Below, one piece after another: positions 8,346 to 46,955 of a DNA stretch of 64,000 nucleotides; the first letter of the stretch is position 1, and every line of letters starts with the position of its first letter. This DNA comes from Bacteroidota bacterium. GTDB taxonomy: Bacteria; Bacteroidota; Bacteroidia; B-17B0; Aurantibacillaceae. Location: positions 1 through 64,000 of the forward strand of contig JAUXTT010000008.1 of assembly GCA_030684395.1 (NCBI GenBank), read 5' to 3'. A model generated the notes under the pieces. That model did no database searches and had not been told where the DNA came from. It saw only the letters and a list, made by a program, of their open reading frames with translations. The position numbers and the translations under genes are program-made.

Positions 8346-8420
8346 AATGTCACGTCGAGCGAAGTCGGGACGATTATGAAAACGTGTCTCATCTGTTCTC
8401 GACTTCGCTCGAACTGGCGC
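8346..8420. repeat. GTCGAGCGAAGTCGAGA long-hairpin repeat, copy 1
   Basis: Inverted repeat whose arms GTCGAGCGAAGTCGgGA (8354-8370) and TTCTCGACTTCGCTCGAAC (about 8396-8414) flank a loop of about 25 nt. The loop (cgattatgaaaacgtgtctc) is almost the same as in the copy at 46878-46955, so the whole unit of about 75 bp is the repeat. It lies between convergent genes. Confidence 0.7.
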
Positions 8421-10654: not shown

Positions 10655-11068
10655 TTATATCAGTTTTATCAGCTCTTCGGGGCTTAACACTTTAATATCT
10701 GCCAGCTTAAAGTCTTTAATATTTCTGGTTACTATACAGTCGATTTTTTCAATATTACCTGCGCAAATTATTTGCAATGCATCTTCAAAGTCTTTGTGCT
10801 TTGACTTCAAACCTTTCTTTAAGACATCAATATCCAATGGTATTATTTGCATATAATCCAGTAAACTGTAAAGAATTTCCCTAAGTTCTTTTTCGGCAAT
10901 GTACTTTTTCAGTAAATAATGAGTTGTTGCGATTGAATGTGAAGAAGTAAATAGCTTAACCTTTTTTTCTTCTGCTTTGCTGAAAATTTCAATAGCAAAT
11001 TTACTAAATGGTCTCCTATCAGCAATTAAGTCAACGAGTATATTCGTATCAACAAAGATTTTCTTCAT
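10655..11068 (-). CDS. PIN domain toxin (VapC-like)
   Basis: 137 aa PIN-fold ribonuclease. The first acidic residue is in FVDTNILVDL (Asp7), later acidic residues are in the KDFEDALQ segment, and the final one is in TRNIKDFK. Its start overlaps the stop of the small upstream gene by 4 bp (ATGA), the classic toxin-antitoxin arrangement. It probably cleaves RNA when its antitoxin is lost. The exact RNA target is unknown. Confidence 0.85.
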   Translation of the reverse strand: MKKIFVDTNILVDLIADRRPFSKFAIEIFSKAEEKKVKLFTSSHSIATTHYLLKKYIAEKELREILYSLLDYMQIIPLDIDVLKKGLKSKHKDFEDALQIICAGNIEKIDCIVTRNIKDFKLADIKVLSPEELIKLI

Positions 11069-11307
11069 AAATGCTTCTTCTCGAAATACGAACGTAACTC
11101 TTTCTCTTCATCAAAATCTTTTGGAAGCTTAACAGAGCCTACAATTCTCTTCAATTTTGGAGAGATCTTTTGATCTTTGTTATCCTGGGTTATTGACTCC
11201 AAATAATTTTCAATCAACTCAGAAAGACTCCTTCCTGTCTGCTTTGCATAAGACTTTGCCTTTTCTATTATAGATTTCTCTACCGTTAATGTGAGCTTGG
11301 TTATCAT
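11065..11307 (-). CDS. antitoxin of the PIN toxin-antitoxin pair (DUF6364-like)
   Basis: 80 aa. The N-terminal half resembles a ribbon-helix-helix or DUF6364-type DNA-binding region (KLTLTVEKSIIEKAKSYA..GRSLSELIENYL). The charged C-terminal tail (KLPKDFDEEKELRSYFEK) probably wraps the toxin. It overlaps the PIN gene by 4 bp. Its promoter has both consensus boxes (11325-11356) and probably includes the autoregulatory operator. Confidence 0.85.
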   Translation of the reverse strand: MITKLTLTVEKSIIEKAKSYAKQTGRSLSELIENYLESITQDNKDQKISPKLKRIVGSVKLPKDFDEEKELRSYFEKKHL

Positions 11308-11891: not shown

Positions 11892-13169
11892 TCATTTTAA
11901 ACCAAAATCTTTTCTAAGCTGTTCTTCCAATTGTTTTTTCGTGGCAAATTTTACATAATCCTTTTTTCTAACTATTGTCCTATGCCGAATATAAGAGACT
12001 TGTTTTAATTCACTTCTCCTTTTATGAGCATAATAGATTTTACCTTTCTTTGAAGCTACAACCGTTACAAATTCATCCGGTGACGAAGTACAATCGCAAT
12101 CTTTTAAATTGAATTTTTTTGGTCTGAAACGCTTAAGATCCAAAACAGAACTATTACCACTAAGGTATGCCTTACCTTTACGTACATATCTTGTTTTCAG
12201 AAACGGTCTCTTATTCTTTACCAAACCTGCAAAAGGCTTAGGTAGAAAATCCAGGTTAATGTTCGCTGCAGGTGAACTTAATTTCACTTCAAACATTCGT
12301 CTGTTTTTCAGATAAGTAACCTTTTCATCTCTTTTCTGCCAACCCGTATTTTCGCCTTGTTTCGATTTTTGCATCTCATAAAGATCAAAAGCTGTGTCTT
12401 GCGACAATTGCGGAATTCTGATTGTAATATCACATCCTTTTTTTATTTTAACTGGTTCGCCGGATTTATTTTTAATATTCAGCTTGAGCATACCCCCTGT
12501 GGAAAGGCAATTTCCTTCTGTTGTTTGAGTGTAATATTTATTCAGTATCATTTTATCTTTGGTAAAAACTTCATCAGCTTCTACCTGAATATCACTTAAT
12601 TTCATCCCTTCTAGACAGCAAGCCTTTATCTCAATTTCAGTTCCCTCAGGAAGTATAAATACAGTATCCCTTTCTTCGCATCCGCCTTTCTTGTTTGCTG
12701 TATCTAAAGATGACCCTATTGTAAGCACTACAGCTTGATATTTGGATATAAGCATCAATGAAACCAACACCTTTCTATTCTTTGCTCTTCCTGATTTTGT
12801 AGAATTAGTATAGGCAGGATTTCGCTCACCATTACCTTTTACTTCCACTTGCTTTGTTTGTATTCCCAATGAACGTAGAATTGAGTCAGCCGCGTTTGCC
12901 CTTTTTTTCGAAAGAAGCAGATTACTTCGTTCACTTCCAATACTATCTGCGTAGCCTTGAACGCTTGCAAGCTGAATGTTATAATCCTTATCCCACTTTT
13001 TCAGTGAGTCCTTGAAAGCAAAAAGGTTGTTTGGTGTTTTTTTTCCTGAGCTATAGTAAAACTCAAAGCTTTTGGATTGGGAAAAGCCCCCATTAGCTAC
13101 CAACAGCAAAATAAAAAGTATAGCCGAAAAAAGAAGATGGTTATTTCGAAAAGATGCAGATCGATTCAT
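11892..13169 (-). CDS. OmpA family protein with N-terminal OmpA-like domain
   Basis: 425 aa. A signal peptide (LLFSAILFILLLVANGGFSQ) is followed directly by an OmpA-like peptidoglycan-binding domain at about residues 33-138 (VQGYADSIGSERSNLLLSKKRA, KVEVKGNGERNP, KNRKVLVSL). The remaining 280 residues are beta-rich and Lys-rich with several cysteines, and I recognise no domain in them. Having the OmpA domain first rather than last is unusual. A periplasmic or outer-membrane-associated role is inferred. Confidence 0.82.
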   Translation of the reverse strand: MNRSASFRNNHLLFSAILFILLLVANGGFSQSKSFEFYYSSGKKTPNNLFAFKDSLKKWDKDYNIQLASVQGYADSIGSERSNLLLSKKRANAADSILRSLGIQTKQVEVKGNGERNPAYTNSTKSGRAKNRKVLVSLMLISKYQAVVLTIGSSLDTANKKGGCEERDTVFILPEGTEIEIKACCLEGMKLSDIQVEADEVFTKDKMILNKYYTQTTEGNCLSTGGMLKLNIKNKSGEPVKIKKGCDITIRIPQLSQDTAFDLYEMQKSKQGENTGWQKRDEKVTYLKNRRMFEVKLSSPAANINLDFLPKPFAGLVKNKRPFLKTRYVRKGKAYLSGNSSVLDLKRFRPKKFNLKDCDCTSSPDEFVTVVASKKGKIYYAHKRRSELKQVSYIRHRTIVRKKDYVKFATKKQLEEQLRKDFGLK

Positions 13170-13233
13170 AGGTAGAGGTTTGCAATAATTAACGAATCAA
13201 AGTATCAATTATTGTAAGAAATAATCAATTAGA

Positions 13234-14655
13234 TTACTCGTCGTTGGTGCTATCTTCTTCTTTTTTCTTCCTGAATTCAAGACCTTTTATTACCGATTTT
13301 TTCTCAACTACTTTTTTCTCACTTATATTCTCCTTCTTCTCCGACTCAATTTCTTTGTCTTCTGCTTTTTTCTCAAACTCTAATCCTTCATCCTCGGCTT
13401 TATTTTCAAACTTATGAGTACGTTTTGTTCCTTCGTACATTTCGAACTTAAGTAACTTACACTCCAATTGGCTGTTAAACAAAGTGATCTTACGAGAAGG
13501 GCGCAAACCAATAAATTTTGCTGCTTCCATATTAGCCGTGATGATCCATACAGAAAATCCCTTGAAATCTTTTTTCAGCTTATCCCCTATTTTTTTGTAG
13601 AATGCGATCATATCATCATCCACTTCCGGTTTTTCTCCGGTTTCACCCATACGTTCACCATAAGGCGGATTCAGGAATAATACACCACGAGGTTTCTCCG
13701 GAACAAAGTCAAAGAAATCCTGATTAACAACAGTTACTACGTCTTCTACCTTTGCATTTTCCACATTGGTTTTAGCGATCTTAGCTGTTTTTGCGTTTAA
13801 TTCAATAGCTGTGATCTTAGGTTGTTCTTCACTGATCTTAGATACCATACTTTCGAAAATAGTATCGTACAGATCCGAATCCCAATCTTTCCATTTCATA
13901 AAACCAAACTCCTTACGGAAATATCCCGCAGGAATTTTATTAGCGATCATTGCTGCTTCAATGGCAAATGTCCCTGAACCTGTCATACCATCAATCATCG
14001 GAATATGACGTTCCCAGTCAGAAAGTAAAATAATTCCCGCCGCAAGAGATTCCTTTAAGGGCGCAGTATTCACTTCTGAACGGTAACCGCGCTTGTGTAA
14101 AATAATATCACTGCTATCTAATGAAATGGTAACATCATGGCGGAAAATATGCACATTGATTCGTAGTGTAGGATGTTCTTTATCTACTGAAGGGCGCACC
14201 TGAAATTTCTCATTAAAACGGTCAACTATCCCATCTTTCGTTACCTGAGAAACAAACTGTGTGTGATTAAAGAAATGGGTATTTACAACCGAATCAACAA
14301 CAAAGGTATCATCCAGCTCGATCAGTTTTTCCCATTCCATTCCGCGGATGAATTTGTAATATTCTTCTTGTTCCTGAATGTAAAAACGTCTGATTGGTTT
14401 TAAGATTCTTAAGGCTGTACGAAGACAAAGATTTGCTTTGTACATAAAACCTTTGTCGCCATAAAAACTCACTGCACGATTGGCAATATCAATATTTTTT
14501 GCTCCTAGTTTACGAAGTTCTGCTGCTAATACATCTTCTAATCCATAGAAGGTAGTTGCTATCATTTCGAAATCACCTTCGTTCAGGTTATCGTACTTTA
14601 TTACTTCTCTTTTGTATTCTTTTTTTGGGGCCTGTGGCCTTCTGTAATGTCCCAT
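13234..14655 (-). CDS. THUMP domain class I SAM-dependent RNA methyltransferase (RlmL/Trm14-like)
   Basis: 473 aa. An N-terminal ferredoxin-like/THUMP part (about 30-190; IATTFYGLEDVLAAELRKLGAKN) is followed by an N2-guanine methyltransferase domain with SAM motif DGMTGSGTFAIEAA and catalytic NPPYGER. It probably methylates guanine in 23S rRNA or tRNA. The last 65 residues form a highly charged Lys/Glu tail with repeats (EKKAEDKEIESEKKE). The frame is open upstream to a GTG at 14730, but those residues are encoded by a palindromic repeat (14708-14730), so I start at the ATG at 14655. Confidence 0.85.
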   Translation of the reverse strand: MGHYRRPQAPKKEYKREVIKYDNLNEGDFEMIATTFYGLEDVLAAELRKLGAKNIDIANRAVSFYGDKGFMYKANLCLRTALRILKPIRRFYIQEQEEYYKFIRGMEWEKLIELDDTFVVDSVVNTHFFNHTQFVSQVTKDGIVDRFNEKFQVRPSVDKEHPTLRINVHIFRHDVTISLDSSDIILHKRGYRSEVNTAPLKESLAAGIILLSDWERHIPMIDGMTGSGTFAIEAAMIANKIPAGYFRKEFGFMKWKDWDSDLYDTIFESMVSKISEEQPKITAIELNAKTAKIAKTNVENAKVEDVVTVVNQDFFDFVPEKPRGVLFLNPPYGERMGETGEKPEVDDDMIAFYKKIGDKLKKDFKGFSVWIITANMEAAKFIGLRPSRKITLFNSQLECKLLKFEMYEGTKRTHKFENKAEDEGLEFEKKAEDKEIESEKKENISEKKVVEKKSVIKGLEFRKKKEEDSTNDE

Positions 14656-14707
14656 TTGTTTACCCTTTGTTTTATATGATCTGTCACCGGACAGCTCGTT
14701 TGTTATT

Positions 14708-14826
14708 GTGGCTTCGGCTCCGCTAGCCACCTTTTATTTCGTTATTCCCAGTGGTTGGGCAGAGTCGAAACCACCTTTGTATATACTCATTCCATTTTTT
14801 AGGTGATTGAGTGGAGCCGAAATCAC
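14708..14826. repeat. three hairpin repeats with covarying arms
   Basis: Three palindromes of 23-24 bp stand in one spacer: GTGGC..GCCAC (14708-14730), GTGGTT..AACCAC (14751-14774) and GTGATT..AATCAC (14803-14826). The last two share a GAG(T/C)CGAA core, and the first shows TTCGGCTC, which is the reverse complement of that core. Arm sequences differ in pairs so that pairing is kept. The spacer lies between the RNA methyltransferase and M42 peptidase genes. Confidence 0.7.
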
Positions 14827-14830
14827 TACA

Positions 14831-15769
14831 TTAAAGCTCTTTCATCAAAACCTTGTACAATTGCACCATAGTTTCGATATCGAACTTGTTTACTTTTTCA
14901 TCAGGTGAATGCACGAAATCTTCGGGAGCACCTATGAAACACCAATCCCATGGATATTCCGACATGTGCAATTCCTTGGCATCGCTTCCTCCGCTACCTT
15001 CTACTTCCAATTGAAAAGGGACTTCAAATTTCTTCGCGATGGTGATGATCTTGTTTATGTAACTTCTTCTTGGGATCAAACTATCGCGCATACTTATCGC
15101 AACACCTTTACCCGCTTTCACTCCTTCTGTTACCCATGTAATATCAGAGATCAATGCCTGGGCAACACCGTAAGTTTCCTGAATATAACGTTGGATGTAA
15201 GAAACACTTCCTCCTCCGTGTTCTTCCCAGCATGAGAAAACGATGATCCCGTCTTTTAATGTTTCCGCTACCTTTAATGCATTATAGATTCCCAAACGGT
15301 TATCCATATAACAACACTGAACAGAAGTTTTATCTTCTCTCCAGTTTGGTTTGAAGGTTAATTCTGTTCCTGTTTCCAGGTCACGTTTGTAAGTATATTC
15401 AATTTTGTCGTGCCCTGTTTTTTTATCACGCACAATTTTCAATTTCACATCAGCAGCCCCTTTACTGTCTTTGCCTACCAAATTGATCCCCTCTTTTAAA
15501 ACCGGGCCGCCGATCTTCACCAATTGTTTACCATAACGAACTGTAAAACCAATACTATCCATATGGGCGAAAATGGCGGTACGTGGTTTTCCGAAAGAAA
15601 GTACAATGCAATCCTGTAATTCTTTACCTGAATAAACAGTTGGTTTGTGTTTCCAGTTCTTCTTTTCTTTTTTAATGTAAGAAAGGAGAAAATCTTTCAT
15701 TGCCACTTCATTTCCGGATGGAGCATGAATAGCACACATGGTTTTTAGTAATTCGTAATCAGATGCCAT
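14831..15769 (-). CDS. M42/M20-type metallopeptidase (glutamyl aminopeptidase-like)
   Basis: 312 aa zinc aminopeptidase. Metal and catalytic motifs are FAHMDSIGF (first His/Asp), CWEEHGGG (catalytic Glu-Glu), ISDITWV (Asp) and the C-terminal FVHSPDEKV (His). The N-terminal MCAIHAPSGNE is typical of M42 peptidases. There is no signal peptide, so it probably trims peptides in the cytoplasm. It is slightly shorter than most M42 members (about 340-360 aa), which may mean a reduced lid domain. Confidence 0.82.
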   Translation of the reverse strand: MASDYELLKTMCAIHAPSGNEVAMKDFLLSYIKKEKKNWKHKPTVYSGKELQDCIVLSFGKPRTAIFAHMDSIGFTVRYGKQLVKIGGPVLKEGINLVGKDSKGAADVKLKIVRDKKTGHDKIEYTYKRDLETGTELTFKPNWREDKTSVQCCYMDNRLGIYNALKVAETLKDGIIVFSCWEEHGGGSVSYIQRYIQETYGVAQALISDITWVTEGVKAGKGVAISMRDSLIPRRSYINKIITIAKKFEVPFQLEVEGSGGSDAKELHMSEYPWDWCFIGAPEDFVHSPDEKVNKFDIETMVQLYKVLMKEL

Positions 15770-15816
15770 AAATATAGGGTGATTTAATAATTAAGATCTT
15801 TTTAAAGCGCTCAAAG

Positions 15817-16278
15817 TTAAGCATTTTGGAGCTTCATCACACAATATTCTTCGGGTACGGCGAGTGAGCCGATACAATAGCTTAATTTATCTGCCAATGC
15901 AGAAGGGTATTCATTAACAACAGAAAAATCAAGCCTTTCGAAAAAAGAAGGGATAATACAAACCAGGTAAAGTTCTGATTTAGCTTTATTGATGAGTGCT
16001 TTACTCAATTCTGTTCCGATATGTTTAAAACGATAAGGCTCTACAATACCCAAAGAACATAGTTCAGAACAATCAGCATACTCACGAATCCTGCCAAAAC
16101 CAAGTAATTCATTTCCTGAAACCGCAACTAAAAATTCTTCGGCTTTTAATTCACGGTTATCCAGTTCAAACTTATTAATGAAATATTTAACCAGCTCAAA
16201 ATGCTTCTGACCACATGGTACAATTAAAATATCTTTCTCTGTTATTTCCACGTTTTGTATTTTAACCATATAATGCAT
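15817..16278 (-). CDS. GNAT-type N-acetyltransferase
   Basis: 153 aa. The acetyl-CoA fold is seen in FLVAVSGNELLGFGRI and CSLGIVEPYRFKHIGTELSKALI, where the usual Q/RxxGxG/A loop is altered to RFKHIG, followed by YLVCIIPSFFERLDF. The C-terminus is less conserved. The substrate is unknown. It lies 47 nt upstream of the M42 peptidase gene on the same strand, so they may share a transcript. Confidence 0.7.
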   Translation of the reverse strand: MHYMVKIQNVEITEKDILIVPCGQKHFELVKYFINKFELDNRELKAEEFLVAVSGNELLGFGRIREYADCSELCSLGIVEPYRFKHIGTELSKALINKAKSELYLVCIIPSFFERLDFSVVNEYPSALADKLSYCIGSLAVPEEYCVMKLQNA

Positions 16279-16342
16279 TTAAGAACACATAAGCAAGAAT
16301 TTAAAAACTTAAATGGCCTTACATAGTTTAATTAAGAAACTA

Positions 16343-17485
16343 TCATTGTTTCATTTCCTTTGTTGCATCATCAATTACCTCTTCCAGCACCTTTTTCTCC
16401 AAAGCCCAGCTATTTTCCTGTTTTGCTTTTAAGGTATTTTGTTTCCAAACATTATATTCAGGAGAGTGTAACATCTCATTCATTTTCTCAGCAATGTGCT
16501 GAGGATCGTGAGAAGAAATAAAATCGCCAATATTGTATGTATCAATCACATTTTTTATTTCGGGTAAAGGGCTTGCTAATATTGGAACTCCGGCATTAAT
16601 AAAATCAAATACTTTATTCGGAAGACTAAAACGATAATTGATGTTATTGTTCTTATCAATGGTTATTCCAAGGTCAGCATTACAGGTATAGTGATACAAG
16701 TCTTCGGCCGGCATTTTTGCTTTAAACATCACTTTTTCCTTTAAGTTCTTCCAAACAGCGTTCACTTTTAAGGTTTCAATCACATCTCCTCCACCTATAA
16801 TCAATAAAAGAGTATTTTCAATGTACTGCATTGCTTCAAGCGTCTCCTCTGCCCCTCTGTCGATATTAATACCCGCACCTTGTATGAGTACTATCTTTTT
16901 ATCTGTTGGCAATCCCAACTCTTGTTTAGTCTTAACACTTGTTACTTGTGGAGGATTACCAATATTACGCACAACGTTGAATTTCACCTTGTATCTGTCT
17001 TCGAACCATTTGGCAATGCTTTTATTTACGGTAATGCAGTGTTTTAATTTAGGAACGATCCGTTTTTCAATCCGCTCCCAGAGTTTTTTTTTCGCAGGTG
17101 TATGAACCAACTCAGGCACTTCACAAAAAACCTCGTGACTGTCGTAGATAATCTTTGCACCACTTAATTTATGATTAGAGTAATTTGGCCAAAGTGTGTC
17201 GAGGTCGTTAGCATAAAGAAGGTCCTTTTTCCTGAATAACAAAAAGAAAAACAAGCGCATTTGAAACTCCGCATAAAAAGCAACACCCGTTTCAAAGACC
17301 AATTTCATACGATGCGTACGATAAGGTCTTTCCCTCAACTTCATGTTATCACGCTTTTTCCTCCCAACTAATAGGACATCATAACCTTTATCATGAAGCA
17401 CCATACAGGCTTTATGAACCCGTTGATCTGTAACCAGATCATTGATCACGGAAACAATAGCGATATGCTTTTTAGTGTTTGTCAA
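16343..17485 (-). CDS. glycosyltransferase family 4-like protein
   Basis: 380 aa GT-B glycosyltransferase. The N-terminal domain opens with IAIVSVINDLVTDQRVHKA. The C-terminal nucleotide-sugar domain shows VLIQGAGINIDRGAEETLEA, the E-x7-E-like ASPLPEIKNVI segment and the FDFINAGVPIL region. It probably adds a sugar to a surface glycan or lipid on the cytoplasmic face. It is divergent from murB, with 65 bp between the starts, and is not inside a recognisable polysaccharide cluster. Confidence 0.82.
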   Translation of the reverse strand: MTNTKKHIAIVSVINDLVTDQRVHKACMVLHDKGYDVLLVGRKKRDNMKLRERPYRTHRMKLVFETGVAFYAEFQMRLFFFLLFRKKDLLYANDLDTLWPNYSNHKLSGAKIIYDSHEVFCEVPELVHTPAKKKLWERIEKRIVPKLKHCITVNKSIAKWFEDRYKVKFNVVRNIGNPPQVTSVKTKQELGLPTDKKIVLIQGAGINIDRGAEETLEAMQYIENTLLLIIGGGDVIETLKVNAVWKNLKEKVMFKAKMPAEDLYHYTCNADLGITIDKNNNINYRFSLPNKVFDFINAGVPILASPLPEIKNVIDTYNIGDFISSHDPQHIAEKMNEMLHSPEYNVWKQNTLKAKQENSWALEKKVLEEVIDDATKEMKQ

Positions 17486-36335: not shown

Positions 36336-36405
36336 GTCAGGTCGAGCGTAGTCGAGACCCTGATGTTCTTTCCTCCGAAATATTCTCGACTACGCTCGAC
36401 CTGAC
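36336..36405. repeat. GTCGAG long-hairpin repeat, copy 2 (perfect 22-bp arms)
   Basis: Arm 36336-36357 and arm 36384-36405 are perfect reverse complements over 22 bp (GTCAGGTCGAGCGTAGTCGAGA), with a 26-nt loop. Compared with copies at 8346 and 46878, the arms read GCGTAG instead of GCGAAG, and the other arm carries the matching change. It lies between pdxA and the hypothetical gene downstream of pepA. Confidence 0.8.
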
Positions 36406-46634: not shown

Positions 46635-46955
46635 GATCGCTAAGGACACAGAGTTACACAGAGGTTTTTTTACTCAATGTCAGGTCGAGGGTTCAAATGT
46701 CGAAGTACAATTAGACCTGAATCGTCTTTCCCGATTGTGCTCGAAATGACAGTAACTATGTCAGGTCGAGCGAAGTTAGGAACTTTTGCCAATGTTGGTG
46801 TTATCACCAACATGTATAATTACCCTAATTTCGTTGGTGATAACACCAACGCCGGCTTTAATGATAATTCAGCGGGAATGTCACGTCGAGCGAAGTCGAG
46901 ACGATTGTGAAAACGTGTCCCGTCTGTTCTCGACTTCGCTCGAACTGACATTTCG
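46625..46955. repeat. island of nested palindromic repeats
   Basis: No gene here; an open frame at 46677-46910 is repeat sequence. In order: a CACAGAG piece (46629-46668), a degenerate GTCAGGTCGAGG..TGCTCGAAATGACA hairpin (46679-46750), and a GTCAGGTCGAGCGAAG half (46759-46776). Next is a perfect 18-bp inverted repeat GTTGGTGTTATCACCAAC / GTTGGTGATAACACCAAC (46794-46811, 46833-46850). The last is a full GTCGAG hairpin, copy 3 (46878-46955), whose arms are 46885-46901 and 46928-46945. Confidence 0.75.

Follow-up and report, generated by a model that had tools for sequence, protein, structure and literature searches.

Among described repeats, the CGTC-tagged REPs come closest to the hairpins analysed here. 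As set out in the sections of their 2013 description that deal with structure and placement (PMC3733652), they are short extragenic hairpins with a one-sided 5' tetranucleotide, in which CGTC often becomes TGTC, and their stems of 8-9 bp carry A-T at positions one and two and close loops of length 4-5. The same sections place them in head-to-head, mostly unequal dimers between co-directional or convergent genes, near 3' ends, in several phyla including Bacteroidetes, and give them neither a dedicated transposase nor a transposase gene flanked by the repeat (PMC3733652). REPs that have no transposase of their own still pose a puzzle.

The locus studied here is a spacer in a 64,000-nucleotide stretch of a Bacteroidota genome (the window), flanked by two minus-strand genes, one for an RlmL-like methyltransferase and one for an M42 aminopeptidase. 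We found that it holds three hairpins of one class where the initial annotation had placed them, with the arms that it gave (GTGGC/GCCAC, GTGGTT/AACCAC and GTGATT/AATCAC) and with the GTGGC/GCCAC unit on the minus strand. This first hairpin (14708-14730, minus strand) has the core AGCGGAGCCGA, without the first G, between arms GTGGCT/AGCCAC; the second (14751-14774, plus strand) has the core GGGCAGAGTCGA between GTGGTT/AACCAC, and the third (14803-14826, plus strand) the core GAGTGGAGCCGA between GTGATT/AATCAC. The cores of the first two deviate from the genome consensus, one by its missing leading G and the other by reading as given. The motif GAGYCGAA occurs four times in the window, three of these inside 110 bp of this spacer, and three such sites within 120 bp were reached in none of 300 dinucleotide shuffles. 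We conclude that all three are probably copies, in part decayed, of a mobile DNA hairpin of REP type.

Two further features lie close by. Upstream of rlmL, at 14681-14694, there is a hairpin CTGTC-ACCG-GACAG, which reads CTGCC-ACTG-GGCAG at the orthologous place of the congener G048 (L312), with one paired T-A to C-G change; it is possibly a leader structure of rlmL. At 10655-11307 a PIN-domain protein adjoins a small DUF6364 protein, and the two look like a toxin-antitoxin pair.

With the arms left free, the core GAGYGNAGYCGA was found in 88 copies (44 + 44) in the genome from which the window comes (the source genome), against two (1 + 1) for the reversed pattern. Two classes were told apart by the pair adjoining the core. 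Class A, to which the three spacer hairpins belong, has T-A there (GGTGGTT-core-AACCACC and variants), and class B has C-G (TGTCAGTTC-core-GAAC); copies with CCCT or CACT arms were kept within class A for the pairing counts and treated as a separate class C for the dimer and context counts. The window also has five class B copies, namely a single one (about 8391-8416, minus strand, CAGTTC-core-GAACAG) and two inverted, head-to-head pairs with no assigned strand. One pair, at about 36337-36403, is missing from the spacers of both G048 and a second congener, G047; the other, at about 46879-46950, has TGTC feet outside. The units are thus short imperfect palindromes in many dispersed, mainly extragenic copies (88 copies; 51 of 58 in spacers) and often form inverted dimers, all of which supports their REP-like nature, in the broad sense of the term, as the initial annotation had suggested; a one-sided TGTC foot is often present too, but not in class A. 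On contig C1 of G004, near 1612397, 2077497 and 2694185, the core stands in tandem arrays that repeat every 23, 21 and 27 bp or at multiples of these lengths.

A unit has a variable stem, 4-8 bp long, and a constant 12-base tip, GAGCGNAGYCGA, that closes it; many copies also have a TGTC foot, on the 5' side of the stem only. In two complete, high-copy genomes this foot occupied positions -9 to -6, in 44 of the 45 copies of G115 and in all 22 of G088. Among 95 copies from named genomes, GTCA stood at -8 in 32, and no 4-mer rose above six on the mirrored 3' side. Within the source genome the TGTC foot was also found in class B rows; class A copies are without it, and a GT[AG]G foot is confined to part of class A.

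The tip was then examined at 266 loci outside the source genome, where GAGC(loop)GTCGA was scored for arms of at least 4 bp. With a loop length of three, such arms were found at 132 of 190 loci, nearly all with GNA loops, many of these loci having been fetched by the GNA form itself; with a length of two they were found at 12 of 44, with CT or TT only, YT loops not having been selected for. Lengths of one and of 4-7 gave none in 26, and the reversed control none in 63. GNA loops closed by G-C pairs are exceptionally stable in DNA, according to the part of a published account that treats them (PMC4686876). We infer that the tip is a DNA mini-hairpin with a C(GNA)G loop, in which a pyrimidine would be bulged and G.A pairs would form. 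Energy folding did not strongly favour this tip, and fold energy was uninformative on DNA versus RNA; for dimers, one long hairpin was preferred over separate hairpins.

The initial annotation had read the arm differences in the spacer as paired changes and hence as a mark of selection on the hairpin itself. To follow this through the genome, pairing was taken from ungapped column counts, in place of a formal covariance model, in a sample of 65 source-genome copies picked by the core and two end letters outside the arms, with the arms unspecified. Watson-Crick pairs were present at stem positions 2, 3 and 4 in 33, 35 and 31 of the 40 class A copies, against shuffle means of 20.3, 13.8 and 13.4, and none of 2,000 shuffles reached these counts; at positions 1 and 5 class A pairing was no greater than composition gives. 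Class B (24 copies) was paired at positions 3 and 4 in 20 and 19 copies (shuffle means 12.2 and 12.0), values reached by one and by none of 2,000 shuffles. All four Watson-Crick pairs were seen at two stem positions in the source genome. The stem is likewise kept by paired changes in G115, where positions 3 and 4 paired in 44 and 42 of 45 copies (13.4 and 18.5 when shuffled), and in G088, where position 3 paired in 21 of 22 (11.2 when shuffled). Pairing so far above shuffles in core-picked copies bears out the matching partner changes and supports constraint on the hairpin. Arm changes without partners, which the annotation had named as the finding that would speak against it, do occur as well: in 24 of the 65 copies, one or more of the inner four positions are unpaired. 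Since units can be copied whole, many paired arms are inherited rather than separate compensations, and the number of distinct arms, 39 different fully paired 4-base arms over five copy sets, is the safer figure.

We found 13 close pairs of units in the source genome. Eight are class B pairs arranged head-to-head at 32-49 bp and three are pairs of other classes arranged tail-to-tail at 89-105 bp; one more class B pair is tail-to-tail and one is tandem. In G115, all 14 head-to-head dimers had unequal outer arms, where random pairing would give a mean of 4.0 with equal ones (P ~0.003), and 12 of the 14 joined a G-type arm to a C-type arm (random mean 6.7, P ~0.003); it is as if a perfect long palindrome were avoided. 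Among 58 source-genome copies, 33 had co-directional genes on their two sides, 17 convergent genes and one divergent genes; six were in naive open frames and one was unclear.

This placement bears on an RNA-level reading, in which the units would be transcript terminators, 3'-end stabilisers or RNase targets and selection for that role would keep the arms paired. Copies do lie near gene 3' ends, at a median distance of 38.5 bases and with 22 of 50 within 30 bases, and several CCCT- or CACT-arm copies sit in GC-rich outer arms followed by a T run, as terminators would. The strand counts between co-directional genes, summed over five sets and leaving out 46 other-footed copies (27 to 15 or similar), differ by foot. 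GGT-footed copies lean opposite to the genes (6 on the same strand, 21 opposite), a bias that a purely DNA-borne element does not predict and that leaves room for an RNA role in class A, the class of the three hairpins. Of the copies with a TGTC foot, 35 are on the same strand as the genes and 25 on the opposite one, and the absence of a clear preference here argues against a strand-bound RNA role. Nor would an RNA-level element be expected to form dimers of opposite orientation, to be absent from congeners or to keep its tip across phyla beside unrelated neighbours. A known structured RNA was rejected, as no Rfam covariance model matched at E up to 1 in window positions 13000-16500. On balance, we regard an RNA-level origin of the paired arms as unlikely.

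Another reading makes class A the 'double-foot' REPs (GTRG...CYAC) of a TnpA-REP in the source genome, moved in the classical way by a RAYT, a link that the initial annotation had raised together with the advice to look for a Y1 (RAYT) gene. Part of class A does have GTGG...CCAC and GTAG...CTAC ends, and the genome has four Y1-type genes, two IS200-like and two RAYT-like, but the core was found in the fetched flanks of none of the four. The exact core lay within 1.5 kb of none of the 30 best RAYT-model loci in the family, of 2 of the 29 Y1 loci from ten high-copy relatives (gene and core being some 1 kb or more apart in each, and copy density predicting about two such loci) and of 1 of 30 fetched Y1 loci in 16 high-copy genomes of other families. 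In this last case (L301) the core is about 146 bp before an IS200-type gene. Altogether 89 Y1/RAYT loci were flank-scanned, some genes recurring between sets, and they carry the core nearby at about chance frequency.

Over 87 genomes, copy count and RAYT count showed a weak positive correlation (rho 0.40; 0.25 after genome size), which would favour a RAYT, but genomes with 80, 61, 53, 46 and 39 copies (G074, G075, G069, G071 and G064) had no match to the RAYT model (NF047646). In G088 and G115, PF01797, the one model run there, found nothing at E up to 0.1; since this model fails to detect the RAYT-like gene of L179, its negatives are weaker than they look. That locus (L179, 1410-2270) is the exception-like case of a RAYT gene beside the repeat, with two cores some 60-140 bp before the gene; the gene has its own terminal repeats, however, 20-bp inverted repeats outside, together with a GTAGAGACGC...GCGTCTCTAC palindrome (GTAG...CTAC) inside the frame. 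Y1 profiles built for this analysis recovered two RAYT-like frames from 183 core-bearing loci, one in L179 and one in L229, the latter about 1.5 kb away from its core, and gave no match in 120 viral loci. Clustering of the open frames that lie up to 400 bp from a core, at source-genome, named-genome, G115 and G088 loci, brought up no transposase in the listed top clusters, which were common housekeeping or regulatory proteins from at most three sources each.

The RAYT of the source genome on contig C40 is flanked by another palindrome, GTTGGTG(A/T)TA(A/T)CACCAAC, with three copies before the gene and one behind (L004, 1198-1990). Palindromes of this type were present in 3 of 30 family RAYT loci (L092, L095 and L096) and look like the cognate repeat of these RAYTs; two copies also lie in the window at 46794-46850. 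The flank approach therefore does find a REPtron, but for a different repeat, and this case illustrates that a genome's repeats may be unrelated to the RAYT that it carries. From the flank scans at chance level, and with the weak positive correlation, L179 and L301 on the other side, we rejected the RAYT association as a demonstrated link. The expected genes are present, but the proposed connection to the hairpins was not borne out, and movement by a RAYT is improbable.

The neighbourhood of rlmL and the M42 gene is conserved in both congeners. In G048 the flanks align and the entire three-hairpin block (about 14706-14832, no strand) is missing. A dimer on the pdxA side is also missing from G048, whose spacer there has only a few bases. 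Allowing up to one mismatch, the core was found in none of six matching spacers of G047 and G048, the third site being matched by one flank only. The congener comparisons showed no exact insertion ends or target duplication. Judged from these alignments, copies appear to have been gained or lost between congeners, and the empty spacers would fit either course at each site.

The family is widely distributed. At least one exact core match was found in 80 of 87 family genomes (counts 0 to 212), and at least one match to a narrower core in 201 of 296 genomes of the phylum (counts 0 to 194); in both sets a lone match may be due to chance. In named genomes a scan gave at least 119 stretches, 80 of which were examined, and among the matches listed 75 of 95 copies had arms paired at two or more positions beyond the pattern (chance 1 in 16). 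Paired-arm records among the matches listed came from Spirochaetes, Opitutia, Clostridia, cyanobacteria, Anaerolineales relatives and SAR202, and further from Scalindua, Eremiobacterota, Acidobacteria, Zixibacteria and others, the names being record titles as deposited and many records being metagenome bins. In viral contigs the core was present in at least 120 stretches, versus 26 for the reversed pattern. Four of these contigs (L459, L464, L476 and L518) have 4-6 paired-arm copies each, on one strand throughout the fetched stretch. Regulatory or structural sites that stay at constant positions, for instance to bind a chromosome-organising protein, would account for the regular dispersal and the conserved core, but the six congener spacers without a core, the spread from 0 to 212 copies within one family and the presence in viral contigs above the reversed control make this reading hardly credible.

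We therefore return to a mobile DNA hairpin of REP type. Copy number, covariation, the fixed tip, the foot, the dimers, presence and absence in congeners and the wide distribution are the observations that we regard as established. In the proposed mechanism, the unit would be recognised as single-stranded DNA. A C(GNA)G mini-loop, a bulged pyrimidine and G.A pairs would make up the tip, and any stem would serve as long as it is double-stranded. Recognition of this form would explain a constant tip together with stem letters that vary in pairs. Moved by an enzyme acting in trans, copies would spread between genes, singly or as inverted dimers and for the most part beside gene 3' ends. Against this mobile-DNA reading stand the failure to link any Y1/RAYT gene to the units, the missing exact insertion ends and target duplications, empty sites that fit gain as well as loss, a class A that is without the TGTC foot and whose GGT-footed copies lean to one strand, a tip that energy folding does not strongly favour, dimer folding that prefers one long hairpin, and paired arms that are inherited through the copying of whole units. 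More speculatively, the units may form a single ancient family, made up of single-stranded DNA hairpins whose tip reads C(GNA)G or C(YT)G and has a bulged pyrimidine, the main branch with a TGTC foot, common to many phyla and viral contigs and moved in trans by an undescribed enzyme other than a flanked Y1 transposase; we put this forward as a tentative possibility, with the balance against it. With a sharp recognition signature, numerous paired-arm variants, relatives with empty spacers and, in G088 and G115, genomes of very high copy number without a Pfam Y1 match, the family makes the question of the mover of such repeats testable.

Exact-string searches of running text found no paper with the core, and word searches on such repeats found general REP papers only. 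The family was compared with three known systems as far as the consulted parts of their descriptions extend. TnpA-REP subclasses 2.4 and 2.6, with double-foot or atypical flanks (2018, PMC6006769), share with it the Bacteroidetes setting and, in part of class A, the double-foot shape, and the RAYT-like proteins of the source genome carry YIHQNP and YIHNNP, as in subclass 2.6; unlike in those subclasses, the C40 RAYT is flanked by another palindrome and not by these hairpins. GTAG REPs, REPINs and RAYTs, in the sections covering them (PMC3733652), resemble it in dispersed hairpins, inverted dimers, subfamilies with paired arm changes and placement, but the foot differs and no RAYT gene is flanked here beyond chance. 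With the CGTC-tagged REPs, as characterised in the sections cited above, it shares extragenic hairpins, in class B-type copies a TGTC foot, unequal head-to-head dimers, 3'-end placement and, with L301 and L179 as exceptions, the lack of a flanked transposase gene. It differs in its stems of 4-8 bp, against 8-9 bp there, in a 12-base tip where the others have loops of 4-5, in having class A copies without the TGTC foot, and in a much wider list of phyla. The best reading of the family is that of an orphan REP near the CGTC/TGTC-tagged kind.
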